Positions 3,275 to 36,180 of a stretch of 36,180 nucleotides of DNA are shown here, piece by piece (positions within the stretch are counted from its first letter, which is position 1; the number at the start of each line of letters is the position of its first letter). Position numbers and translations under genes: made by a program. Below the pieces are notes generated by a model. That model did no database searches, was not told the DNA's origin, and was given only the letters and a program-made list of their open reading frames with translations. The DNA is from Anaeroplasma sp. (lineage in GTDB: Bacteria > Bacillota_I > Bacilli_A > Acholeplasmatales > Anaeroplasmataceae), in assembly GCA_022768655.1 (NCBI GenBank), contig JALEQD010000063.1:1-36180 (forward strand). The letters run 5' to 3'.

Positions 3275-5584
3275 TTAATCATTTACTATTTCAAGCATAA
3301 CCTTCATATTTCCATATCTATTAGAATGGATTGTTACCATTTCTTTACCAGATAGGACCTTCGATTTTACCCAAAAGCTTCTTACTCCGCCAATTAATGA
3401 AATAATAGTATCTCCTATTACCTCAAGACCATTTGATACTTCAATAGAAAAGCTATCAAATGCATAATCAACTCTATGACCATAATTACCAATTGCTTCT
3501 AAGTCAATCTTACATGTATCATAGCTTCTTTTTGTGTGTAAAATATGTGTTGATTGTCTAATTTCAATATGATCTAAATGCTGAGCACCAACCATAATAT
3601 TTTTCACTTCTTTACCACTAATATATCCAATGAAATTATATGGAGTAGGATGTGATCCCCAATTTGCAACATATTTTCCATAATATTTCCATGCATCATC
3701 AATATCTTCTTTTGAATACTTAGATGTAACTTCTTCTCTATCATTTATTCCATCATATTCAAGCATTAATTTGATACATTGCTTTAAATGATCTGATCTA
3801 TCCTTAGTTAATCCTTCAACATCTGTTAGGATATTTCCTAATAAATCCTCAACCTTTATTGCTCCACCACATGGACCAAATAAATTGTTATATGTATCAA
3901 CTAAAATACCATTATGATACATCTCTACTTTTTCACAATTTGTCATAATTGAGATGTATCTTAAATATCCACCATTATGCTCACCAATATTTAGGTTTGA
4001 TGTAACCTCCAAAAATGGCTCACGACCAAATGTCATATATGGATAAGCAGCATATTTTATATTTCTAAAAATATCTAAAACACCATGATAGCAAATTAAA
4101 TCTCCACTACCAAAATCTAGATGCGTATTGTAATCTGCAAAGCACCAGCCAAATGCACCTAAAATCAAATCATCATTTGCACATTTTTTCAAAACCTCTG
4201 TATGAATTAATGCATGATCTGTTCTTCTAATCTCATTATCAAAGGATTTTGTAGGAAACATATGTCCACCATATTCTGATACCAAATATGGTTTATTAGA
4301 TTTAGTAACCTCATCCTTATTTCTAAGAGCTATTCCTTTATTAGTACAAATAAAATCATTATATGTATAAACATCCTCTAAAAGCTCAGAATCTCTAATA
4401 CACCTTACTCCGCCTGTCATACGATATGGATCAGTTTTATGTGCCATTTCATTTGTTTTAGTGTAAAAATCATGATAATCACCTGATTCATTGATTCTCA
4501 CACCCCATAAAATAATAGATGGGTGATTTCTATCACGCATGATCATATCATAAACATTATTAATTGCGATATTTTGCCAATTTTCATCTCCAACAAATTG
4601 CCAACCTGGAATTTCTTCAAAAACTAACAATCCAAGCTCATCACAGGCCCTTAAAAAATCTGGGGATTGAGGATAATGTGATGTTCTTACAGCATTAAGC
4701 TTTAATACATTTTTCATCATTTGAGCATCCTCAATTTGTGCTCTATGTGGCATTGCATAACCAACATATGGATATGATTGATGTCTATTTAGTCCTCTTA
4801 TTTTTATTTTTTTATCATTTAAGAAAAATCCATTTTCTCTAAATTCTATTGTTCTAAAGCCCACCTTATCAGTAATGCTATCTAAAACATTACCATCATC
4901 ATCGATTAAATCAAGTTTCATTGTATATAGGTGGGGATTATCTATATCCCAAAGCTTAACATTAGATAATAAACCACTAATTACATCGCCATTTTTCACT
5001 CTTTTTCCAAATGTTGATGCACCATCAGTAAATGTTACATTTATATAGCATGCCTCATCTTTTGATAATGTGTAATCGATGAAGTATTCATTTTTAGTAT
5101 TATGCATATAATAACTACTTATATGTAGTGGATTTAATATATCCAAATATACATCACGATATACACCACCAAAGCATAAATAATCAACGACAAAACCAAA
5201 TGGTGGTTGATTTATTTCGTTTGAATCAACAACAAGTGTAATTTCATTTTTTCCTAGTCTTGCAAATTTGTTTAATTCAACCTTAAATTGAGTGTATCCA
5301 CATTTTTGAATATGAGCTAGACTTCCATTAACATAAACCTTTGTTAAATGACCTACTCCTTCAAAAACTAATTTATAAATTTTTGATAAATCATCAATAT
5401 CAATAAATTTTTTATATGTGCTAATTTTATTTGAAATTGTTGATGAAAAATTAGATAGTGGAACCTCCTGATTTGTATGTGGAATATTTACAATATCAAA
5501 GCCATCTAGATTTCCTAAATTAAGATCCACATCATCATAATTTGGCTTAAAATACCAATCATAATTTTGATAAATATTACGCAT
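3275..5584 (-). CDS. Glycoside hydrolase family 2 beta-galactosidase
   Basis: Likely cytoplasmic beta-galactosidase (769 residues, no signal peptide). The GH2 order is visible: N-terminal jelly-roll with a substrate-loop segment (about 1-150), Ig-like domain (about 155-255), then the TIM barrel. The barrel holds NRHQSYPYVG, VRTSHYPQS, the acid/base region NHPSIILWGVRINES (Glu of NES) and the nucleophile region YLVSEYGG (Glu of SEY). About 200 further residues follow the barrel. Substrate is inferred from the galT and galK genes that follow; GH2 also includes glucuronidases and mannosidases, so specificity is not proven. A frame opens at 5638, but ATG 5584 has a near-perfect ribosome site AAAGGGAGG 6-7 nt upstream and is chosen. 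First gene of the gal operon. Confidence 0.88.
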   Translation of the reverse strand: MRNIYQNYDWYFKPNYDDVDLNLGNLDGFDIVNIPHTNQEVPLSNFSSTISNKISTYKKFIDIDDLSKIYKLVFEGVGHLTKVYVNGSLAHIQKCGYTQFKVELNKFARLGKNEITLVVDSNEINQPPFGFVVDYLCFGGVYRDVYLDILNPLHISSYYMHNTKNEYFIDYTLSKDEACYINVTFTDGASTFGKRVKNGDVISGLLSNVKLWDIDNPHLYTMKLDLIDDDGNVLDSITDKVGFRTIEFRENGFFLNDKKIKIRGLNRHQSYPYVGYAMPHRAQIEDAQMMKNVLKLNAVRTSHYPQSPDFLRACDELGLLVFEEIPGWQFVGDENWQNIAINNVYDMIMRDRNHPSIILWGVRINESGDYHDFYTKTNEMAHKTDPYRMTGGVRCIRDSELLEDVYTYNDFICTNKGIALRNKDEVTKSNKPYLVSEYGGHMFPTKSFDNEIRRTDHALIHTEVLKKCANDDLILGAFGWCFADYNTHLDFGSGDLICYHGVLDIFRNIKYAAYPYMTFGREPFLEVTSNLNIGEHNGGYLRYISIMTNCEKVEMYHNGILVDTYNNLFGPCGGAIKVEDLLGNILTDVEGLTKDRSDHLKQCIKLMLEYDGINDREEVTSKYSKEDIDDAWKYYGKYVANWGSHPTPYNFIGYISGKEVKNIMVGAQHLDHIEIRQSTHILHTKRSYDTCKIDLEAIGNYGHRVDYAFDSFSIEVSNGLEVIGDTIISLIGGVRSFWVKSKVLSGKEMVTIHSNRYGNMKVMLEIVND

Positions 5585-24546: not shown

Positions 24547-25914
24547 TTAAACAATATTCTTTAATTCCTTGGTATATCCTCTTGAAACAATAATAGTTTC
24601 TCCATTAGATAGATTAGCACGTAATCTACTATTTTTTTCTTTTTCGATTGATACTATTTTTTTATAATTACAAATCATTGATTTTGAACATCTAATAAAA
24701 TTTTCATTTAAGCTAGATTCTATTTGATATAGCTTTTCCTTTGATTCATAAAATGAATTTTTTGTATAAATAAATGTTTGATTATCTACTGCCTCAATAT
24801 AATAAATATCATTAAATGAAATAGAATATATTTTATTGTCCTTATATCCTGATATTTTATCTACTACCTTATCTAGTTCTTTTACAACCTCGGCAAATGA
24901 TTCATATTCCTTATCAAATTCTATATTTCTTCTATTTAATACTAGCTTATAATTTGTATAATTATAATCATATATATTATTTAGTTTTAAGCTAACAAAT
25001 TTATCATAATCATTTTTCTTTTCAAAAACAATACTAACTGTTTTATCCTTAGAATAAAAACATTTACCATTTAGATTACATAAATTATTTTCAACATATG
25101 ATTCAAATAATTTTTGTGATTCTTCTTCACCTATGATAGATGATAATGATTCACTATTAACTAAGGTTACATTACAAATGTAGAATAATTTATTTTTTTC
25201 AATAAATTCTTCAATCATTATTTCAAATGCATTTCTATCAAAAACAAGACCTTTACCATCTGCTAAAAACTTATCAGAATTTTCAAATGACATATAAATA
25301 AATTGAGTCATAAGCACAATTGCTAGACTTGATAACAACCATGTAGGATTAAAATATTGAATTATCGTAATTATTACCCATGATGAAATTGCAAGTAAAA
25401 TCATGATTTTTTCATATTTTGTAAATCTTTTATTATATTTGATAATAAAAATTATAGATAATACAATATATATTACTACAAATGTATATATTGTATTAGC
25501 CATAAATCCATAAGAATAATATCCATCTAATCCAACATAATATTCTAAATCACCAAAAATAATTAATAATACTGTTATGATTATGGGTATTATTCTAATT
25601 ATTAATTCTTTTTTACTATATTTTTTTTGTTTTCTAGCTCTAGAATCTATATATAAAAATAACATCATGACAATTATATCTATTGACCCTATAAATAATT
25701 GGTGAACAAACCTATTAAACCAAGCAGGTACTGTATCTAGATGTGTTATAGTATATAATGTAAAAAATTCTACTATTATATTAAATAATCCAAAAACAAT
25801 AAAACAGGTAAAAAACCTAGTTGATCTTAAAGGTAATCTTTTATGTATAAAAAAATTAATCGTTATAACAAGCATCATACATAAGGATGCGATTTGAATT
25901 CCATGCTCAATCAT
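24547..25914 (-). CDS. Membrane-bound LytTR transcription regulator (7TM, degenerate GGDEF, LytTR)
   Basis: 455 residues. Seven membrane helices fill the first ~210 residues. A middle part (about 218-345) opens like a GGDEF domain (GLVFDRNAFEIMIEEFIEKN), but the GGDEF site is replaced (YSKDKTVSIVF), so it cannot be an active diguanylate cyclase. The last ~95 residues are a LytTR DNA-binding domain (ISFNDIYYIEAVDNQTFIYT, FIRCSKSMICNYKKI, LSNGETIIVSRGY). Signal sensing and DNA binding thus lie in one protein with no kinase or receiver. GGGGAG lies 9 nt before ATG. It follows the flippase by 33 bp, probably as the last gene of the polysaccharide operon, and faces a repeat pair upstream of the ABC operon. 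Confidence 0.85.
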   Translation of the reverse strand: MIEHGIQIASLCMMLVITINFFIHKRLPLRSTRFFTCFIVFGLFNIIVEFFTLYTITHLDTVPAWFNRFVHQLFIGSIDIIVMMLFLYIDSRARKQKKYSKKELIIRIIPIIITVLLIIFGDLEYYVGLDGYYSYGFMANTIYTFVVIYIVLSIIFIIKYNKRFTKYEKIMILLAISSWVIITIIQYFNPTWLLSSLAIVLMTQFIYMSFENSDKFLADGKGLVFDRNAFEIMIEEFIEKNKLFYICNVTLVNSESLSSIIGEEESQKLFESYVENNLCNLNGKCFYSKDKTVSIVFEKKNDYDKFVSLKLNNIYDYNYTNYKLVLNRRNIEFDKEYESFAEVVKELDKVVDKISGYKDNKIYSISFNDIYYIEAVDNQTFIYTKNSFYESKEKLYQIESSLNENFIRCSKSMICNYKKIVSIEKEKNSRLRANLSNGETIIVSRGYTKELKNIV

Positions 25915-25947: not shown

Positions 25948-27357
25948 TCATTTACGTTTAATAATAGAATTTAATATTTTTAATATAATTTCATGATAAA
26001 AAGCAAACATTAAAATAATTAGTACAAAAATATAAACAATAAAGCCTAACCATACATTAAGTAAAAATGATGTTAAATAAAATGCTAGAGTTAAAATAAA
26101 TAAGAAGCTTATATTTTTAATTGGATTTGCCTTATATTCTTTTACAAAGAAGAATTCTGATAAGAAATACCATAAAAATAAGGATATAACAGAAGCTATT
26201 GAAATATACATTGGTTCTTTTAATAATACTATAGCAAGTATATTTAAAATAATAGCACATATTAAAATAATCAGACTTTTAATAAAAAATGATAAATTTT
26301 TATTTGCAACCTTGTAATAATTTTGCATAACAACTGTTATGCAAGATGATACTGCAAGGCCTGGAAGTATTATTTTAAAAATCAATAAAGAATCAATATA
26401 TTTTTCTAAATACCATCTTATAAATGCATCAAGTGGAAAATATAATGCTAGACCACCAAATACAACCATAAGCATCAAAGCTATTGCCTTATTATAATTA
26501 TCCTTTACTTTGTCGCCATTCATTTTCTTTAGCATTGGATATAAAACCATTGATACTGCAGTTATAAATGTATTTGCGATAGAAAAAAGGCTGTATGCAA
26601 ATGAATAAAATGCATATATATTTGTATCATATAATCTTTCAACAAATATACGATCACAGCTTAATATTAGTGTTGATACTAAATTTGCGATTAATAGTGG
26701 AAGTCCTAGCTTAATTAGTGATATGATTTCATCCTTTTCACTTCTTATGCTGTTAGATTTGCCAAATATTATTTCTTTATATTTAATAAAATAATATAAA
26801 AGTAAAATGTAATTAGTTGAAACAACAATAATAATATAAATAAAATAATTTGCATTAGGAATAATATATATTAATCCTACACCAATTAAGGTTAATATAC
26901 TCCAAAATATATTAAAAATTGATAATATATTAAACTGACTTGAAAGCTGTGAAACAGATGCAAAATATGTAAGTAGCTGTTGAGCAGTTAGATTAACTGC
27001 GATACTTATAAATATAATCTTTGATTCACCCTTAAAAAAGAAAAATGATACTACAAAGATAATAACAGATATGATTAGCTGTAAATAAAATAATGCCTTT
27101 ATATAGCATCTAAATTTATTTCTATCTAATTCATTATAATCCTTACCACCATATTTCAAATATATACCATCTATTAATCCTAAGGAAAATAAACCTATAT
27201 ATGTCATATATAGGGTATATGTTTTATAATAACCATAATCCTCAATAGATAAAAACTTAGGAATAACTAGTCCAATTGCCATACCGGCAACAAGCCTAAT
27301 AATATTACTTATTGTAACAATAAGTATATTTTTGGTAAATCTTTTACCCTCTTCCAT
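25948..27357 (-). CDS. Polysaccharide flippase (Wzx/PST family)
   Basis: Moves undecaprenyl-linked sugar repeat units across the membrane. 469 residues with 12-14 predicted helices and the family-type start KNILIVTISNIIRLVAGMAIGLVIPKF cut into TM1, then SIEDYGYYKTYTLY, a pattern common in PST/MATE-like exporters. A frame opens at 27378, overlapping the stop of the upstream glycosyltransferase, but AGGAGGTG ends about 6 nt before ATG 27357, which is chosen. It sits at the end of the cluster of sugar transferases. Confidence 0.88.
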   Translation of the reverse strand: MEEGKRFTKNILIVTISNIIRLVAGMAIGLVIPKFLSIEDYGYYKTYTLYMTYIGLFSLGLIDGIYLKYGGKDYNELDRNKFRCYIKALFYLQLIISVIIFVVSFFFFKGESKIIFISIAVNLTAQQLLTYFASVSQLSSQFNILSIFNIFWSILTLIGVGLIYIIPNANYFIYIIIVVSTNYILLLYYFIKYKEIIFGKSNSIRSEKDEIISLIKLGLPLLIANLVSTLILSCDRIFVERLYDTNIYAFYSFAYSLFSIANTFITAVSMVLYPMLKKMNGDKVKDNYNKAIALMLMVVFGGLALYFPLDAFIRWYLEKYIDSLLIFKIILPGLAVSSCITVVMQNYYKVANKNLSFFIKSLIILICAIILNILAIVLLKEPMYISIASVISLFLWYFLSEFFFVKEYKANPIKNISFLFILTLAFYLTSFLLNVWLGFIVYIFVLIILMFAFYHEIILKILNSIIKRK

Positions 27358-27377
27358 AGCTTCACCTCCTAAGCTCA

Positions 27378-28469
27378 TTATCTTTTAGATATTACATCCT
27401 CAAATATTTCTAAATGTCTTTTAGCCATTTTTTCAATTGTGTATTCCTTACTAATATTAATCGCATTAGTCTGCATTTCATAATATTTATCATATGGTAA
27501 TGTCAATATGTTTTTTATGCAATCTACATATTTATCAATATCTAATACATCAACCATTTCACCACAGCCTGCAAGCATTTCATGGCATGCAAGGCACATA
27601 TTTGATGATACAACAGGTAATCCTTTCGCAAGTGCCTCATTTATCACCAATCCCCATTGATCTTCTCTTGTTGGAAGTAAAAATACATCTGATGCTAAAT
27701 AATATTCCTCTAAGCTTTTTTTATCCAAAAAGCTTATAGTTTTTATATTTAAGCCCATAGATTCTTTTAATTTAATATATTCATCACTTAAATTACCACC
27801 AATCATAACAAGCTCATATTCTTCTAGCTTAGAATAAATTTGAAATAATAGATCAATTCCTTTTCTATGAACAAACTGACCAACAAACAATATTGTTTTT
27901 TTCTTTAAGCCAAGCTTTTCTTTTAATTTTGTCTTTTCTTCAATTGTAATTGGTTTATCTATTACATAGGATGAATGAATCGATGTAAATGGATAAATAT
28001 AATTATTCATACCACCATAATATTTATTTACATCAACACTATAATCACCTGTAGTGACTAAAAATTCAGAATTAGAAAACATTTTTCTTTTAAGCTTTAA
28101 TTTGAATTTATTTTCATTTTCATGCTTAAAAATACCATCAATACTTAATCCATATGGTATTTTATGCTTAATACAATATCTTGATGAAATAATGGAATTA
28201 ATAGTATGATAATTACCAAATAAAACAATATCATATTTATCCTTCAAATATTTTTTGGCTTCAAATGAAATAACTGCATCATCACCATACTCTATGCCCT
28301 TTAAAAAATGATATTTGAAATTTTTAAAATTATTACTCATCCATTCATCATTTCTTGATTTAGCATTATTTCTTTCAAATAATACTGTTAAATCAACATA
28401 TTTACCAATTTCATTAAAGAAATCTACTCTATATGGAGATGGTACATTAGTTATAAATAAAACTTTCAT
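27378..28469 (-). CDS. Glycosyltransferase, GT4-type
   Basis: 363 residues, cytoplasmic, two Rossmann-like halves (GT-B). The N-terminus MKVLFITNVPSPYRVDFFNEI is typical of the WcaI/PimB-like GT4 branch. The C-terminal half shows ILFVGQFVHRKGIDLL (R-x-x-x-K-G, binds the nucleotide sugar phosphates) and the E-x7-E region EDQWGLVINEALAKGLPVVSS. Sugar and acceptor unknown. Its ATG overlaps the preceding gene's TGA by 4 nt (ATGA). Confidence 0.88.
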   Translation of the reverse strand: MKVLFITNVPSPYRVDFFNEIGKYVDLTVLFERNNAKSRNDEWMSNNFKNFKYHFLKGIEYGDDAVISFEAKKYLKDKYDIVLFGNYHTINSIISSRYCIKHKIPYGLSIDGIFKHENENKFKLKLKRKMFSNSEFLVTTGDYSVDVNKYYGGMNNYIYPFTSIHSSYVIDKPITIEEKTKLKEKLGLKKKTILFVGQFVHRKGIDLLFQIYSKLEEYELVMIGGNLSDEYIKLKESMGLNIKTISFLDKKSLEEYYLASDVFLLPTREDQWGLVINEALAKGLPVVSSNMCLACHEMLAGCGEMVDVLDIDKYVDCIKNILTLPYDKYYEMQTNAINISKEYTIEKMAKRHLEIFEDVISKR

Positions 28470-29497
28470 ATTTTTTCCTTTATGCTATCAAATATTATTT
28501 TTGATACATTAAACCATGTATATTTAGAAAGTATTTCATTTCTTTCATCTTCTGTAATAATTTTAGATTCCTTTAACAATGGTTTAATTGTATTAACATT
28601 ATTTGGATCGCAATAGCTTACATAATCGCCATAGCATTCCCTAAACACTTCTATGTCAGATAGAATTATTCTCTTACAGCCACAAGCTATTGCCTCAAGT
28701 GGTGGAATACCAAAGCCCTCATAAAAGCTTGGTAAAATAAATGCCTCACATTTACTATATAAATAATTAATATCCTTATCACCTAAATACCCTGTAAAAA
28801 TAACATTATCAAGGCTTTCTAAGCTTTCATCTGAATAAATATTACCAGCACCACCAGTAATAACAAACAAATATTCTGGATTTTGTTTTGCAGCATCAAT
28901 TATGTAATTTAAATTTTTTGTTTTGTTCATACTTCCAACAGTAAAAAAATATGGTCTATCAAATTTTAATTTTTGATTATCAATATCTACTACTTCTTTT
29001 TCTCTTACACCATTTGATGTTACTACTACATTTTTTACATTATAGTAATCCTCTATTCTTTTTTTTGAAAAGTTAGATACTGTAAATATAGGATCATATC
29101 TTTTTATATTTCGTTTTGTTATATACTTAACAACAAATCGATATAAAAAGCTATAAAATTCTTTATTATCTATTAAATTTAGATCATGTATTGTACAAGC
29201 ACCCGGAAATTTTATTGGTGCTAAATTACACAAATTCAATAATATTTTACCTTTATTTTTCTTTATATATTTTGGAAGTGTAAATTGCTCAAAGTAATAT
29301 CCACTTCCTTTTATTTTTACATATTTAACATGCTTATAATCTAAAGGAATTACTGCATCCTTAGGACATACAACTAAAAAGCTGTAATCTTTATAAATGG
29401 AATTATTTTCAAATTCATAAACTATTTCTCTGGCATATCTTTGTACACCTGTTAATTTTTGAGATAAATATTTACCATTTATATAAATTGTATTCAA
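28466..29497 (-). CDS. Glycosyltransferase, GT4-type (mannosyltransferase-like)
   Basis: 343 residues. The N-terminus has ING.YLSQKLTGVQRYAREI, typical of GT4 enzymes such as mannosyl/rhamnosyl transferases of O-antigen loci. The C-terminal half has FTVGSMNKTKNL, GYLGDKDINYLYSKCEAF and LPSFYEGFGIPPLEAIACG, with the conserved E-G-F-G-x-x-x-x-E. The start is a TTG at 29497, preceded by GGAGG 7 nt away. That ribosome site lies within the last codons and stop of the upstream polymerase gene (E-V-stop), so the two are translationally linked. Sugar unknown. Confidence 0.88.
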   Translation of the reverse strand: MNTIYINGKYLSQKLTGVQRYAREIVYEFENNSIYKDYSFLVVCPKDAVIPLDYKHVKYVKIKGSGYYFEQFTLPKYIKKNKGKILLNLCNLAPIKFPGACTIHDLNLIDNKEFYSFLYRFVVKYITKRNIKRYDPIFTVSNFSKKRIEDYYNVKNVVVTSNGVREKEVVDIDNQKLKFDRPYFFTVGSMNKTKNLNYIIDAAKQNPEYLFVITGGAGNIYSDESLESLDNVIFTGYLGDKDINYLYSKCEAFILPSFYEGFGIPPLEAIACGCKRIILSDIEVFRECYGDYVSYCDPNNVNTIKPLLKESKIITEDERNEILSKYTWFNVSKIIFDSIKEKI

Positions 29498-29499
29498 GC

Positions 29500-32274
29500 T
29501 TACACCTCCAGTAATTCATTTTTTATATTATATTTTTTAGATAATTGCTTTTTCAAAAAGCCATCCTTTGCATCAATATAAATATCTTTTGCTTGCATAT
29601 TTATAGATAATAATGCAAGTAATACACTATTATTAGGACTAATTACATTTATTTTATCGATACCATATTTTTTCATAAATACAATTAAAATAACAACAAT
29701 ATAAATATATCCTTTATTATAATAAATTTCAACATTATCCTTTACTTCTTTTTTAGAATTTTTTGAAGTAACAAGAATAATATTTTTTTGATTATTATCT
29801 AATGTAGCCATTTCTATTTCGGGTACAATATGTAATATTACTCTATCATTTAATAGTTCATCTTTAATTTTACCATCTATCATATATTTATCACTTAATG
29901 ATGATATAAATAAAATTGGTATAAAGAAAGCTGTTGAATAGCTCATTAAGGTTGCTTCAAACATTGAGAATATAAAATATGTAATTAAAACAGCTAAATA
30001 TTTTGTATTATTACTCTTTACCACTTTAATTGCTGTGATTGTATACAATAATGCATATACACCATATGTTATAAAGCCTTCATAGAAAATAACATTCATA
30101 TATAAGTTATCAATTATCAAATTAAATTCAGGAATACCCCTTAAAGTTACCCAATCATAGTGTATAAATCCATCGTGAATCAATGTTAATCTTCCACTTA
30201 ATATATCATTAAGTTTATTTCCAACATATCCAAATCTTATTGCCATTAGATATGTCGCAGCAGTAAAACCAATAAATAAGAAAGAAAATATATAACGCCA
30301 TCTTCCTTTTAATTTAATAAAATCAGATAAAGTATCTAAAATTATTAGTATGAATAATGTAATGCACCCAGTTCTAGAATGTGTATAATAATAGCATCCA
30401 TATACTAAAATAATACCAAATATTCTTGCAGTCCAACTAGGCTTGTTATATAAAATATAGCATGATATGCCAACAAACAAGAATAAAGATACTGTATTTG
30501 GATGTCCAAATCCTAATGAATTTCTCTTTGTTTCAGTAGGTTCAAAATCTCCAATATTCCATATATAGAAAACATCATTTTTAAGTGTTCCAAAAGCACA
30601 TAGTAGTAATGTTACTATAAACATAATAGTAATAGATATATACATTGACCTACAATACTCTTTTGGTCCCTTTTTCACAAAGCATGCACCCAAAGCTAAA
30701 AGCATAATAAATACATAATCTTTTGAAGCCCATGCAGCAAGAAGAGCTAGAATTGAATATAATATAAATTTCAGATAATTTATACTATTTCTGGTATTAA
30801 TCAAAAAGTAAATACCACAGAAAAAAATAAATACCAGAACAAAAATAGAATTAATAATATTAAAACTAGAGTCACCAACATACAATGTATAAAATTTAAA
30901 TCCAATCAAATAGAATGTTAAAAGCTCCGGTATATTAGAAATAATATATGAATAAATAGTTGAAATCACTTGTTTAAAAGATAAACCACCATTATTTTTC
31001 ATATAAGATAATTTATTAACTAAAAATAAAATACAACCTGATAAAAGTATCAAAAATAATAATGGAATAATTATATACTTAGCATACCCAGATACTTCAA
31101 CCATAAAAGTATCAAATGTTTTTTGAGTTTCTTCTACCTTCGAAAAGAAATATTTAAATTCTATTGGTAATTCATTTGATTCGTATGAGAATACATGTCC
31201 TTCTTTCTTCAAATTTAAAATAGTAAAATTAACGAAAGGTACATCATCACATAATATCAAATCAACTTTAACATTTTCGATATTTTGATAGTTTTTCTTA
31301 TTTAAATTAAAATTAAATTCATATAAAGGATATTCATATCTACTATCCATACCAGTTACTGAATTATAACTAATCACAAATTCATTAACATTTTGAGGGA
31401 TAGATATATTATAAATTAATAATCTTTTTTCATTTACTATATCATCTAATGAAATTGAATTTAATCCAATATTGTCAAATTTATTTAATATTTCGTTTTC
31501 TAAAACCACTAAAGCATCATCTATATCTACATCATCATATTTAGATAATAAATAAGAAAATAGCTCAGTTGAATTTGAAAATATTACTTTATTTTGAATA
31601 GATGATAGTTGAAAATCTATTTCTTCTTTAGATATAATAAATGATTTTTCTTCAATTGTAGGAACTAATAATGCATCATTATTAAAACTATCATCAAGAT
31701 TATCAATTTCTTTTTTTGTTAAATTCTTATATGCTAGGTTAGAAGTAATTAATCCATATCTATTTATAGCCTCATAATCTATTCCAACCATTAAATCTTC
31801 TTGATAATCATATTCGTAAAAATAGAATAAACTATCAGAATAATTTGACAAATATTTATTATCTAATAAATAATTATATGAATTTTTTATTAAATCAGTT
31901 TCTAAAAAATTATTCTTTGATGGACCATAGTATTCTTTATATGATAAATTTGTATTAAAACTTCTTTGAACCTTTGATTGAAAGTCAGAAGAATTACTTC
32001 TTAAGGATACGAAAAATGGAACAATAGCGTTAATATCATTATTATGTTCAAATCCGTATTTAGCTTCTACACTACCAAGCATAGCATCATCTGCACTTTT
32101 TCCTTCTGAATAATCAAATTTTAATCTTAATTCTTTTACATCAACCTCTTCAGAAAAAATAACATCTGGATTATAATCTCTGGTTCTTGTTTCAAATATA
32201 TATGGATTAGCAGATAGCCACGCAGCAAAAAAAACTAATAAAAACAAAACAATTAAATAAAACTTCCTTTTCAT
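29500..32274 (-). CDS. Large Wzy-like polysaccharide polymerase with an extracellular N-domain and cytoplasmic C-domain
   Basis: 924 residues, about twice the size of normal polymerases. Order: TM helix (about 5-24); a soluble part of about 370 residues, predicted outside, no recognised family; TM helix (about 398-418); then about a dozen helices with Wzy/O-antigen-ligase landmarks SLGFGHPNTVSLFLFV and YYYTHSRTGCITLFI (about 590-660) and a large loop with SGRLTLIHDG; finally about 115 cytoplasmic residues starting DRVILHIVPEIEMATLD. That tail resembles the first part of a GT4 transferase but has no catalytic half. The TM-ectodomain-TM start is topologically like Wzz chain-length regulators, without clear sequence match. 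GAGGAGG lies 7 nt before ATG; the start overlaps the upstream stop by 4 nt. Confidence 0.78.
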   Translation of the reverse strand: MKRKFYLIVLFLLVFFAAWLSANPYIFETRTRDYNPDVIFSEEVDVKELRLKFDYSEGKSADDAMLGSVEAKYGFEHNNDINAIVPFFVSLRSNSSDFQSKVQRSFNTNLSYKEYYGPSKNNFLETDLIKNSYNYLLDNKYLSNYSDSLFYFYEYDYQEDLMVGIDYEAINRYGLITSNLAYKNLTKKEIDNLDDSFNNDALLVPTIEEKSFIISKEEIDFQLSSIQNKVIFSNSTELFSYLLSKYDDVDIDDALVVLENEILNKFDNIGLNSISLDDIVNEKRLLIYNISIPQNVNEFVISYNSVTGMDSRYEYPLYEFNFNLNKKNYQNIENVKVDLILCDDVPFVNFTILNLKKEGHVFSYESNELPIEFKYFFSKVEETQKTFDTFMVEVSGYAKYIIIPLLFLILLSGCILFLVNKLSYMKNNGGLSFKQVISTIYSYIISNIPELLTFYLIGFKFYTLYVGDSSFNIINSIFVLVFIFFCGIYFLINTRNSINYLKFILYSILALLAAWASKDYVFIMLLALGACFVKKGPKEYCRSMYISITIMFIVTLLLCAFGTLKNDVFYIWNIGDFEPTETKRNSLGFGHPNTVSLFLFVGISCYILYNKPSWTARIFGIILVYGCYYYTHSRTGCITLFILIILDTLSDFIKLKGRWRYIFSFLFIGFTAATYLMAIRFGYVGNKLNDILSGRLTLIHDGFIHYDWVTLRGIPEFNLIIDNLYMNVIFYEGFITYGVYALLYTITAIKVVKSNNTKYLAVLITYFIFSMFEATLMSYSTAFFIPILFISSLSDKYMIDGKIKDELLNDRVILHIVPEIEMATLDNNQKNIILVTSKNSKKEVKDNVEIYYNKGYIYIVVILIVFMKKYGIDKINVISPNNSVLLALLSINMQAKDIYIDAKDGFLKKQLSKKYNIKNELLEV

Positions 32275-33560
32275 ATTGAAGCCTCCTCTTCTTTATTAGT
32301 TTTTTCAATTATTGCCAATATAATCATTAAAATCATCATAAAATAGTACATATGGTATGTATTATCTATTAATCCATAAATATCTATAACAATAAAGCCT
32401 ATTAATAGCATGCTATTTAATATATTTTTATTTTTAATAACAAATAGATATTTTTGATATAAATGAATAATTAAAACAATAAGACCAACAATACCTACAC
32501 ATGCCAAAGTTTCATATAAAGTAGAATGACAAACTATAACAGCATCCTTTATATCAACATCAAATGGCATACCAGCTCCAAATAAAAAATATAAGGGATT
32601 ACGTTTTATAATTGATAATGCTTTTTCATATAGTTCAAATCTACCATTGTCATCGATTGCATCAATCGCATGCTTTAAAACCCAATCATATTTGATGTAA
32701 ACGAATGCAATTATTGCAAGTATTCCTGAAGATAATGCAATGTAAAATATTTTCTTGTAGCCTTTTTTCCATAAAAAATATAAAGATAAAAAGCATCCTT
32801 CAGCAAGTGCGAACATATAAGCACCACGACTTAGGGTTGCTAAAACCCCAACCATTGAAAGAATTAAAACAAATAAATCATATAAACATTCTTTCTTTAA
32901 AAAATTTTTGTAAAGTCTATAAAAAGTAAATGGTAAAGCAAGAATTAACATAATTCCAGCCTCATTACAGATTCCCCATCCTAGTGTATAAATGTCACGG
33001 AAATTCCCTGTTGTTGAAGCTATTCTTAATATTGAAAGAATACCTTCAAGAGAAAGTAAAATACTTAAGCCTTCCATTGACATTGCTAATTCTTCTTTAA
33101 TATCTTTTTTAACAGAACAAACAATAAAGATATATATTACAAAATAGCCAGACCATGCTAAATACAAAAAAATATAACTAAATTCTTTTGCACCACTCCA
33201 AAAAATTGGGATAAAAAATAATATTGCCATTATAAGTATAGGTATTCCGAATTTACCAAGTGTAAATTTAACCTTATTACGTATCAAATATACTAAAATT
33301 ACAGCTACTAAAAGTATTACACCAACAATTGTACCTATTGATATATTTGTTGTTGCGGCAACAGTACCATTAACAAAAATAAAGTTTATAAAGAATGGAA
33401 GGGCAAGTTTTATATCATTAGAAATAAATAATACTATAGCACATAAAATCATCATTATTCCGAGTGAAAACATTCCACCATATCCCCACAACAATGATGA
33501 TATTAAAGCAATTAAAAACGTATATATTAAATAATGTTTTCTATTTTTTACTATATTCAT
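32271..33560 (-). CDS. O-antigen ligase/polymerase-family membrane protein (Wzy_C type)
   Basis: 429 residues, about 11 membrane helices. The landmark is the helix VLATLSRGAYMFALAEG followed by a large outer loop (NGRFELYEKALSIIKRNPLYFLFGAG and H-S-T-L-Y-E-T), the Wzy_C/WaaL pattern in which Arg and His residues act on the lipid-linked sugar. It could be the polymerase or the ligase that moves the finished chain to its carrier. A TTG-started frame opens at 33578, but GGGAGG lies 6 nt before ATG 33560. A hairpin separates it from the upstream transferase. Confidence 0.82.
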   Translation of the reverse strand: MNIVKNRKHYLIYTFLIALISSLLWGYGGMFSLGIMMILCAIVLFISNDIKLALPFFINFIFVNGTVAATTNISIGTIVGVILLVAVILVYLIRNKVKFTLGKFGIPILIMAILFFIPIFWSGAKEFSYIFLYLAWSGYFVIYIFIVCSVKKDIKEELAMSMEGLSILLSLEGILSILRIASTTGNFRDIYTLGWGICNEAGIMLILALPFTFYRLYKNFLKKECLYDLFVLILSMVGVLATLSRGAYMFALAEGCFLSLYFLWKKGYKKIFYIALSSGILAIIAFVYIKYDWVLKHAIDAIDDNGRFELYEKALSIIKRNPLYFLFGAGMPFDVDIKDAVIVCHSTLYETLACVGIVGLIVLIIHLYQKYLFVIKNKNILNSMLLIGFIVIDIYGLIDNTYHMYYFMMILMIILAIIEKTNKEEEASI

Positions 33561-33598
33561 TATTGCCTCCCAGTACAACGTAAATTCATATAGTTTAA

Positions 33599-33624
33599 AA
33601 GAAACTTCAGCCTTGAAGTTTCTT
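33599..33624. terminator. Strong hairpin inside the polysaccharide cluster, weak terminator or processing site
   Basis: Perfect 11-bp stem AAGAAACTTCA/TGAAGTTTCTT (33599-33609 and 33614-33624), 4-nt loop, starting within the stop codon of the upstream glycosyltransferase. On the minus strand only TTTAAAC follows, so the T tract is poor. No promoter is evident in the ~40 bp before the next gene, so at least part of the transcripts must read through. Confidence 0.5.
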
Positions 33625-34747
33625 AATTATCATTTAATAAATTTAAGCAATTTATCTTGAAATCTTTAAATAGCATAAGCTCTTCTACTCGCTTATAAGC
33701 ATTTAAAGCATATTCTTCTTTCATTTTTTCATTTTTTCCTAATTCATTGATACATCTTGCAAAATCTAATGAATTTCTATTTTCTGCTTCTAACCCAGTC
33801 ACATTATTGATTGAAACATAATTCACACCTGAACCTTCAATTGTAAATGTAACTGCTGGCTTTTTAAAATACATACCTTCAGCAAGTGCTAAACCAAATG
33901 CTTCATTTTTAGTTATTGATGGAAAGGCATATATATCCATAATGGATAAATATACCTTTAAATCAGAATCTGATAATTTTCCTAAAAATTCAACCTTATT
34001 ATCACCAAATGCTAATTTCTTATTTTTTTCTAATAATGGTCCAGTACCACCAATAAAAATTTTAAAGCTTTCATCTAAATATTTAGATGCTTCAATTAAA
34101 TAACGAAAGCCTTTATATTTTACATGTCTACCAAAAGAAAATACAATCTTTTTATCTTTTAGTTCTTCTTTTAATTTTATAGCTTTATCCTTTTCAGCAT
34201 CAGTTAATATTAATCTTTTTTCATTAATACAGCTTGGAATAACAATTACCTTTTCTTGAACATTTTTTAAAAATTTTGATTTTTCTTTATAGATTGGTGA
34301 TGTTGTAACAATTTGATTTGCACGATTAATTAATCTTTTTGTTTGTAGATCAAAAAACTTACGAATAAACTTTTGTTTTACTATATCCATATGATACCAA
34401 AGGATAAAACGAATATTATTATCCTTTAGATATGGCAATAAATAATGTGCAACATATGGATTTGGATAATGAAATATTACAATATTTGGTTTATAATTAT
34501 TAAAATATTCATCTAATGCTTCTTTATATGAAAAAGAAATAGATTGTGATAATACTTTTTTCCATACACCACATTTTCTAACCTCTACACCATCTATTAT
34601 CTCACATTTGTCTTGTTCATCCTCACTGAAGCATAATACCTTTTGTTCATATGCACCAGCAAGTGAATCAACAATGTCGTGACATGTTTGTTCAATGCCA
34701 CCAATATGAGGTTTATAATAGTTAGGAATATGTAAAATCCTATCCAT
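33623..34747 (-). CDS. Glycosyltransferase, GT4-type
   Basis: 374 residues. N-terminal donor-fold start ILHIPNYYKPHIGGIEQTCHDI, with the G-G-I/M-E loop typical of GT4. The C-terminal half has FSFGRHVKYKGFRYLIEA (R-x-x-x-K-G) and PSITKNEAFGLALAEGMYFKKP (E-x-F-G-x-x-x-x-E). Possibly mannosyl- or heptosyl-transfer, given the neighbouring heptose genes, but the sugar is not readable. GGAAGG lies about 10 nt before ATG. It lies between gmhB and the ligase-like gene. Confidence 0.9.
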   Translation of the reverse strand: MDRILHIPNYYKPHIGGIEQTCHDIVDSLAGAYEQKVLCFSEDEQDKCEIIDGVEVRKCGVWKKVLSQSISFSYKEALDEYFNNYKPNIVIFHYPNPYVAHYLLPYLKDNNIRFILWYHMDIVKQKFIRKFFDLQTKRLINRANQIVTTSPIYKEKSKFLKNVQEKVIVIPSCINEKRLILTDAEKDKAIKLKEELKDKKIVFSFGRHVKYKGFRYLIEASKYLDESFKIFIGGTGPLLEKNKKLAFGDNKVEFLGKLSDSDLKVYLSIMDIYAFPSITKNEAFGLALAEGMYFKKPAVTFTIEGSGVNYVSINNVTGLEAENRNSLDFARCINELGKNEKMKEEYALNAYKRVEELMLFKDFKINCLNLLNDN

Positions 34748-34769: not shown

Positions 34770-35255
34770 TTAAAGTTTAATATATTCAAAATCAACTGGA
34801 TATTCTTCATATCTAGTTTTTTTAAATATTAATGTTTTTATTCCTGCTTTATTTGCAGCCTCTAAATCACTCATCTTATCCCCAATAGCTACTGAGCTAT
34901 TTGGATCAATATCAAATTCTTCTATTGCCTTTAAAAACATACCAGGCTTTGGTTTTCTGCAGTCGCACATATCCTGTGGAGTATGAGGACAATAATAAAC
35001 CTTTGTTAAATTTATGCCATGCTTAATAAATTGTTCTTCCATCCATTTATTAAGAATTATAAAATCCTCTTCAGTATATAGCTTTTTTCCTATTCCTGCT
35101 TGATTTGTAACAACAATAAGCATATAGCCTTCATCATAATATTTTTTACAAAAATCAAATATGAAATCAGTAAATTTAAAATCCTCTATTTTATGAACAT
35201 GTCCATAATCTATATTAATTATTCCATCTCTATCAAGAAATAATGCTTTATTCAT
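34770..35255 (-). CDS. gmhB: D-glycero-D-manno-heptose 1,7-bisphosphate 7-phosphatase
   Basis: Removes the 7-phosphate from heptose 1,7-bisphosphate; cytoplasmic HAD enzyme, 161 residues. Motif I is FLDRDGIIN (Asp 8 nucleophile, Asp 10 acid/base), motif II is VTNQAGIG, and IGDKMSDLEAA is motif IV. The GmhB zinc loop is visible as C-P-H-x6-C-x-C-R-K-P-K-P. Histidinol-phosphatase has the same fold, but adjacent hddC and gmhA decide for heptose. A longer frame opens at 35300 inside hddC; ATG 35255 has GAGG 9 nt upstream and overlaps the hddC stop by 8 nt, so it is chosen. Confidence 0.92.
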   Translation of the reverse strand: MNKALFLDRDGIINIDYGHVHKIEDFKFTDFIFDFCKKYYDEGYMLIVVTNQAGIGKKLYTEEDFIILNKWMEEQFIKHGINLTKVYYCPHTPQDMCDCRKPKPGMFLKAIEEFDIDPNSSVAIGDKMSDLEAANKAGIKTLIFKKTRYEEYPVDFEYIKL

Positions 35256-35922
35256 TTTTATTATCCTCAATAAATTTATAATAATCCTCTGGAATTCCAA
35301 TATCTATAAAATAATCATATGATTTATATGCATAGATATTTAATTCTTTCATATATACCTCAAAGAAATCCTTTTCCATAGAAAATTTCTTATCAAGATG
35401 ATATCTTGTAAAGATATCTGATGGTAAATAATATATACCACCATTTATATATCCTTCATCAACATGTTTTTTTTCTTCAAATGCTTGAATAATTCCATTT
35501 TTAATTTTAACCTCGCCATAGCGATCAAAATTAAACATTTTTCTACATGCGATAGAAATTTTGTTTGTTTTTGCCATTTCTTTATAATTAATTTTAAAGA
35601 ATGTGTCACCATTAATTACAAAAACAAAATCATCTTCAGATAGCTCCATTGCTTTTTTTACACAGCCACCAGTTCCAAGTGGTTCATTTTCAATAGAATA
35701 TAATATTTTCATACCCTTATATGAATCACCATAGTAATCCATTATTACTTCCTTTTTATATCCTACTGCTAAAATAACCTTATCAAATTCTTGTTCTACA
35801 AGTTCATCTAAAATATAAGATAAAAATGGAACATTACCTATTGGTGCCATTGGCTTTGGAACATCTGATACAACGCTTTGAAGTCTTGTACCAAAGCCAC
35901 CAGCTAATATTATTGCTTCCAT
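35248..35922 (-). CDS. hddC: D-glycero-alpha-D-manno-heptose 1-phosphate guanylyltransferase
   Basis: Transfers GMP from GTP to heptose 1-phosphate, giving GDP-D-glycero-alpha-D-manno-heptose. 224-residue nucleotidyltransferase with the signature LAGGFGTRLQSVVSDVPKPM (residues 6-25), the sugar-binding region EPLGTGGC, the metal-binding INGDTFF, and GYINGGIYYLP. The SVVSDVPKPMAPI form is characteristic of HddC-type enzymes and differs from glucose-1-phosphate thymidylyltransferases; exact nucleotide use is inferred. GGAG lies 6 nt before ATG. It starts 3 bp after the gmhA stop. Confidence 0.85.
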   Translation of the reverse strand: MEAIILAGGFGTRLQSVVSDVPKPMAPIGNVPFLSYILDELVEQEFDKVILAVGYKKEVIMDYYGDSYKGMKILYSIENEPLGTGGCVKKAMELSEDDFVFVINGDTFFKINYKEMAKTNKISIACRKMFNFDRYGEVKIKNGIIQAFEEKKHVDEGYINGGIYYLPSDIFTRYHLDKKFSMEKDFFEVYMKELNIYAYKSYDYFIDIGIPEDYYKFIEDNKNE

Positions 35923-35925
35923 ATT

Positions 35926-36180
35926 TTACTCCTCTTCATTAAAGAATTCATTTTCTAATGCTAAGCATATTGCATGATATATTGGTAAATGTAATTCTTG
36001 AATCTTATATGTTTCTTCTTCTGGTGCTTGAATTGTAATATCAGATAATTCTAGTAGCTTAGAATCCTTTTTACCAGTTAATGATACTACATACATACCT
36101 AATGCTTTTGCAACCTTTGCAGCATATACACAGTTTAATGAATGACCAGATGTTGAAATACATAATAATGTATCATTTAA
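35926..36180 (-). CDS. gmhA: Sedoheptulose 7-phosphate isomerase, C-terminal part (cut by right window edge)
   Basis: The last 84 residues of a SIS-domain protein, 5' end outside the window. Visible landmarks are the SIS phosphate-binding ISTSGHS, AAKVAKALGMYVVSLTGK and the GmhA-typical ending TYKIQELHLPIYHAICLALE, with the active-site Glu and His of QELHL. It converts sedoheptulose 7-phosphate to D-glycero-D-manno-heptose 7-phosphate, the first step of the heptose pathway. Only the kinase (HddA) step is missing from the visible set; it may lie just beyond the edge. Confidence 0.9.
   Translation of the reverse strand, partial: LNDTLLCISTSGHSLNCVYAAKVAKALGMYVVSLTGKKDSKLLELSDITIQAPEEETYKIQELHLPIYHAICLALENEFFNEEE

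Follow-up and report, generated by a model that had tools for sequence, protein, structure and literature searches.

The gene examined here encodes a protein of 924 residues that is, judged from its homologues and profile matches, a real and rare three-part fusion, in which an anchored extracellular module precedes a Wzy-like membrane core and a fragment of a GT4 glycosyltransferase follows it. It lies in a window of 36,180 nucleotides of Anaeroplasma sp. DNA, the whole stretch that was analysed. All of the parts are of known kinds; their combination would add a new domain architecture to the Wzy superfamily, present in a small clade, and no Wzy polymerase with such a domain was found in the open-access literature searched. 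We propose, with moderate confidence, that the composite is a Wzy-superfamily repeat-unit polymerase that has captured a complete membrane-anchored surface protein, DUF4424-like, at its N terminus and carries a GT4 fragment at its C terminus.

A single reading frame kept in three genomes

The composite gene starts within the last 4 bp of the 435-aa Wzy_C gene upstream, and a GT4 gene begins 2 bp after its stop. Hydropathy shows hydrophobic segments at residues 5-23 and 401-419, separated by a polar region and followed by a block of multiple TM segments and a tail that is largely polar (Table 1). The initial annotation had read this layout as an extracellular part of about 415 residues, a Wzy-like core and about 115 residues resembling a GT4 transferase; that order turns out to be kept in three genomes, and the boundaries were accurate to about 10 residues. 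The 924-aa protein itself gave nothing significant in Pfam or NCBIfam.

A survey of homologues for the three-part order found two further full-length proteins, each a single open frame with the same architecture: one of 932 aa (41% identity) in G155, which belongs to another genus of the same family, and one of 920 aa (38%) in G015, from the same genus as the window. Full-length composites were present in 3 of the 55 genomes searched within the family (the window's own, G015 and G155), all with the gene order Wzy_C - composite - GT4 - GT4 - Wzx. Relative to the window, the ectodomains of G155 and G015 are 37-40% identical, their cores 42-49% and their tails 19-22%. Taken together with the comparisons described below, these alignments demonstrate separate origins for the three parts, and a fusion and five-gene cassette that have been kept in all three genomes. 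The homologue searches were limited to sampled genomes: about 390 genomes sampled from the class and about 390 from the phylum held no further composites, one profile scan of genome contigs returned no relative of the composite and a second just the stand-alone G320 protein itself (see below), and neither a scan of viral contigs with the core nor a plasmid search with the stand-alone module gave any match.

Table 1. Coordinates of the composite gene, its parts, its neighbours and the relatives of its N-terminal module. Positions are those of the window unless a contig or genome is named.
Feature	Location	Strand	Description and basis
Composite gene	29500..32274	minus	924 aa, ATG start, no internal stop; ORF reading and full-length homologues
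Residues 1-23, N-terminal hydrophobic segment	32206..32274	minus	Signal peptide or signal anchor; hydropathy and alignment
Residues 24-397, DUF4424-like ectodomain	31084..32205	minus	Extracellular; profile searches and alignments
Residues 398-424, transmembrane anchor	31003..31083	minus	Last part common to stand-alone modules; hydropathy and alignment
Residues 440-802, Wzy/WaaL-superfamily core	29869..30957	minus	Profile comparison and alignment
Residues 803-924, GT4 N-terminal-domain fragment	29503..29868	minus	Profile searches and alignment
Wzx-type flippase (PF01943)	25948..27378	minus	Conserved cassette gene; Pfam
GT4 transferase	27378..28469	minus	Conserved cassette gene; Pfam
GT4 transferase	28466..29497	minus	Conserved cassette gene; Pfam
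Wzy_C (PF04932) protein	32271..33578	minus	435 aa, second polymerase/ligase-type gene, conserved neighbour; Pfam
GT4 transferase	33623..34747	minus	Same type as the tail-matched G034 enzyme
gmhB, hddC, 3' part of gmhA	34770..36180	minus	D-glycero-D-manno-heptose activation; gmhA cut by contig end
Wzz-like and EpsG-type genes on C73	L071:2405-3676 and 3755-4954		
Stand-alone relatives of the module, 285-306 aa	G028, G029, G035, G140, G144		
Stand-alone relatives of the module, 425-470 aa	G248, G320, G338, G350, G391, G424		
Relatives with an extra multi-TM block, 543-554 aa	G003, G025 (window's own genus)		Beside a gpmI-like gene
Relative with multi-TM, cytosolic and zinc-ribbon parts, 888 aa	G031		

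The Wzy-like core

The Wzy-like character assigned to the core was borne out by profile-profile comparison with the family of the neighbouring Wzy_C protein (E 5.8e-8; controls with reversed and flippase sequences gave 0.03 or more). The core reached no Pfam or NCBIfam family: against Pfam Wzy_C, judged by its gathering score, the window's copy had no match, and one of seven relatives matched at E 0.012. R634, R695, D722 and E773 are invariant in all seven cores. Hydropathy gives about seven strong segments and a low-confidence AlphaFold2 model (core plus tail, one-sequence input, mean pLDDT 42) about 12 helices; the Wzy/WaaL superfamily has 10-14 TM helices (PMC12004945). The composite is like Wzy polymerases and O-antigen ligases (Wzy_C, PF04932; CAZy GT121-GT135) in the homology of its core to the neighbouring Wzy_C family, in being encoded with Wzx and glycosyltransferase genes and in its invariant Arg, Asp and Glu residues, but differs from them in having a core without a Pfam match of its own, preceded by a large surface module and followed by a GT4 fragment.

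Core-only homologues were found in G034 (385 aa, 31% identity), G225 (371 aa), G210 (381 aa) and G354 (401 aa), and a profile of these four proteins finds the composites at about 1e-35. The G225 homologue lies in a capsule-type operon with Wzz (PF02706, E 3.4e-16), a CpsD-like kinase, a CpsB-like phosphatase, a priming glycosyltransferase, other glycosyltransferases, a flippase and an LCP protein (PF03816, E 1.7e-29), the roles given here without a family having been read from sequence. It is the only polymerase candidate seen in that operon, as is its counterpart in the stretch of G354 examined; G210 has an EpsG-like protein besides the core homologue. The stand-alone proteins of 371-401 aa are likely to be the polymerases of ordinary Wzx/Wzy operons.

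An ectodomain with stand-alone relatives

Ala22, within the hydrophobic N-terminus of the module, is invariant in 12 module sequences, and this segment, a signal peptide or signal anchor, may be cleaved. The ectodomain had been described initially as belonging to no recognised family, which holds for the composite in Pfam, where the module has no direct DUF4424 match, but its relatives point to a family distantly like DUF4424. Searching with a profile built from the modules of the three composites brought up an independent protein of 425 aa in G320 (E 1.2e-6), which adjoins an mgtE-like gene and has an identical copy in the Acholeplasmatales MAG DTU067, and from its relatives a broad family of membrane-anchored surface proteins was traced within the class. 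A profile restricted to stand-alone members matches the three composites over almost the whole module (residues 1-416, 3-428 and 1-419), and alignments of composite and stand-alone modules that share no member match each other at E 2.1e-7 (profile-profile). When the TM segments are removed the same comparison gives E 1.6e-5, with reversed and shuffled controls at 0.5-0.9, and its confident stretch is the C-terminal subdomain; by these comparisons homology of the ectodomain is firm only for that subdomain, colinearity being what argues for the N-terminal half.

Seven stand-alone relatives match DUF4424 (PF14415) below threshold, always its N-terminal part, the best with 23.7 bits against a gathering cut-off of 27 bits, and because these matches lie below the cut-off we call the module DUF4424-like, a distant resemblance for which family membership is not claimed. 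The DUF4424 structure 4g2a was not recovered by profile search, and PDB sequence searches with the module, core and tail profiles gave nothing credible. DUF4424 proteins begin with a signal sequence. Their domain is a 19-stranded beta sandwich that has been proposed to assist a catalytic partner (PMC3848476). In a low-confidence AlphaFold2 model of the module (two-sequence input, mean pLDDT 37) the N- and C-terminal thirds are largely beta and the middle is helical.

Residues 1-424 of the composite align end to end with the 425-470 aa proteins among the stand-alone DUF4424-like surface proteins of Bacilli, but those proteins end after one TM segment or run into other membrane parts, and the composite has conserved blocks of its own. 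The strongest of these composite-specific blocks lie in the ectodomain at residues 259-278 and 303-322, and their conservation suggests a surface that is in use. Where they could be seen, stand-alone module genes lie outside polysaccharide loci, and their neighbours read, by sequence and without a family search, for example as mgtE, infC or gpmI.

Several members of the family have layouts of their own. In G031 (L021:184-2850) the ectodomain is joined to multi-TM and cytosolic parts with a zinc-ribbon end, a sensor-like layout, and in two proteins of the window's own genus (L056:1501-3165 and L057:1144-2775), each beside a gpmI-like gene, it is followed by about five extra TM helices. G391 has a second, tandem copy of the stand-alone module by an mgtE-like gene, with a stop codon inside it (L014:17-1036, also L017).

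A partial GT4 domain at the C terminus

The GT4-like tail noted in the initial annotation matches GT4 N-terminal halves at a profile-profile E of 2.4e-6 (controls at 0.3 or above), although just part of such a half is present. Beyond the composites, the best match of the tail profile is a GT4 enzyme of the related G034 locus (E 1.1e-5), to which the G155 tail is identical at 18 of 34 positions over one stretch. Matches in G002, G011, G027 and G030 (E 0.001-0.008) were judged to be chance. In all three composites the tail, which stops after about 120 residues, aligns only inside the GT4 N-half and lacks the C-terminal nucleotide-sugar-binding domain. It resembles the N-terminal half of cassette-type GT4 glycosyltransferases but departs from these enzymes in having no C-terminal donor-binding domain and no Pfam match. 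Because only part of the N-terminal half is there, the tail probably lacks transferase activity. It evolves faster than the rest of the protein, the window's copy being the most diverged of the three, and may be decaying.

The polysaccharide locus

The window is contig C58 of a draft genome in 228 contigs that is 94.6% complete. The gmhA gene is split between this contig and C73: with the gmhA protein of G034 as reference, C73 covers residues 25-103 and the window end residues 115-194. From this split, C73 appears to adjoin the window at position 36180 with a short stretch missing between them. It encodes a heptose-kinase-like protein, a Wzz-like protein of 423 aa (PF02706, 21.2 bits against a cut-off of 25.5), an EpsG-type polymerase (PF14897, E 5.7e-17) and a second flippase-like protein, and if the two contigs do adjoin, the locus would include a Wzz-like protein of its own and three candidates for polymerase or ligase. 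Elsewhere in the genome, two priming transferases (PF02397) are encoded. No LCP (LytR-CpsA-Psr) protein was found in it, in a search whose controls worked, a missed gene being possible in a draft of this completeness.

Discussion

In the polymerase model that we favour, the GT4 enzymes of the cassette would build a repeat, probably one that contains heptose, on a lipid carrier, Wzx would flip the lipid-linked repeat, and the core would join repeats on the outer face of the membrane. The fused ectodomain, tethered by its own TM segment, would sit next to the core active site, most likely in an accessory role, either keeping hold of the growing chain or its acceptor or tying the polymerase to a surface or ligase partner, for instance the Wzy_C protein encoded next to it. 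More broadly, we infer a role in handling the chain or acceptor, in tethering or in sensing. The tail, with its donor-sugar-binding half missing, would be at most a docking surface for cytosolic transferases. The two other polymerase-type genes of the locus, those for the Wzy_C protein and for the EpsG-type protein on C73, count against dividing the polymerase and ligase roles with any assurance.

The main rival, which we consider less likely, reverses these roles: the Wzy_C protein would be the polymerase and the composite a glycan ligase, with a core that takes chains completed by the Wzy_C or EpsG-type protein and transfers them to an acceptor at the surface, bound by the ectodomain. WaaL and TacL transfer chains onto their acceptors. 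Two Wzy/WaaL-superfamily proteins are encoded in each of the cassettes of the window, G015 and G155, as in G034, and with no LCP protein found in the genome the polymer, if it is attached at all, would need another attachment route. TacL, a Gram-positive lipoteichoic acid ligase (PMC5727136), is a precedent for a ligase of this kind. However, the core-only homologues of G225 and G354 share their operons with LCP proteins and with no other polymerase candidate in the stretch examined, which fits a polymerase, and the Pfam match to a ligase-named family belongs to the neighbour and not to the composite.

It is rather improbable that the ectodomain is a sensor or a passive passenger, a mobile surface module with no direct part in catalysis. 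Its being joined elsewhere to unrelated membrane parts (about five TM helices in one case, multi-TM and zinc-ribbon parts in another) is what such a module would lead one to expect, but here the fusion has been kept over deep divergence, with 37-40% ectodomain identity to the window, and composite-specific blocks have been conserved. Still less probable, to the point that we give it little weight, is a fusion of the polymerase with a chain-length regulator of the Wzz type, as the initial annotation had entertained. The TM-ectodomain-TM layout on which that idea was founded does exist, and the two hydrophobic segments flanking an extracellular part are shared with Wzz and CpsC co-polymerases, but the layout is equally common to unrelated stand-alone surface proteins. 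None of the modules in the family alignment matches Wzz (PF02706), their homologues are surface proteins from outside polysaccharide loci, and the adjoining contig carries a separate Wzz-like gene. Wzz-type co-polymerases have an extracytoplasmic domain that is mainly helical, whereas beta structure prevails in the outer thirds of the low-confidence model, around a helical middle. Length control of the Wzz type is not upheld at the level of homology. Finally, although the genome is a draft in 228 contigs, an assembly or gene-calling artefact that joined separate genes is ruled out for practical purposes, since the uninterrupted frame and its neighbours recur in two further genomes, nor are the extra parts ordinary loops of a known large polymerase family.

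A related arrangement is that of WadA, a GT121 ligase joined to a GT25 domain (PMC10920833), which like the composite is a membrane enzyme of the Wzy/WaaL superfamily fused to a glycosyltransferase domain of cytosolic type. In WadA the globular GT25 domain is present, whereas the composite keeps just part of a GT4 domain and has an ectodomain in addition.

Wzy polymerases are usually bare membrane proteins, and their partners, Wzz and the ligases among them, are separate proteins that are hard to prove. A natural fusion would name a partner for the polymerase and supply a construct for testing the extracellular domain against chain length, acceptor choice and attachment; the unexplained DUF4424-like surface proteins, too, would gain a clue to their function. 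The polymerase model could be taken further, to a self-contained machine that polymerises and holds: in a cell with no detectable LCP ligase, the DUF4424-like ectodomain would grip the growing chain or its acceptor above the Wzy active site and so couple polymerisation to retention at the surface within one polypeptide, although we consider this doubtful. The fusion bears on how cells that apparently have no LCP proteins keep polysaccharide on their surface.

Two minor observations concern possible regulation. Within the window, a protein with multiple TM segments and a LytTR DNA-binding domain at its C terminus is encoded after the Wzx gene on the same strand (24547-25914) and is a possible regulator of the locus. 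Directly upstream of the G155 cassette (L005:5664-9516) are genes for two proteins that, from sequence reading alone, look like GGDEF/EAL (c-di-GMP) proteins. As for the history of the cassette, identity between the window and G155 is 72% for Wzx, 68 and 63% for the GT4 enzymes, 52% for Wzy_C and about 41% for the composite, and the window's composite is closer to that of G155, from another genus, than to that of G015, from the same genus, which suggests that the cassette may have been exchanged between lineages.
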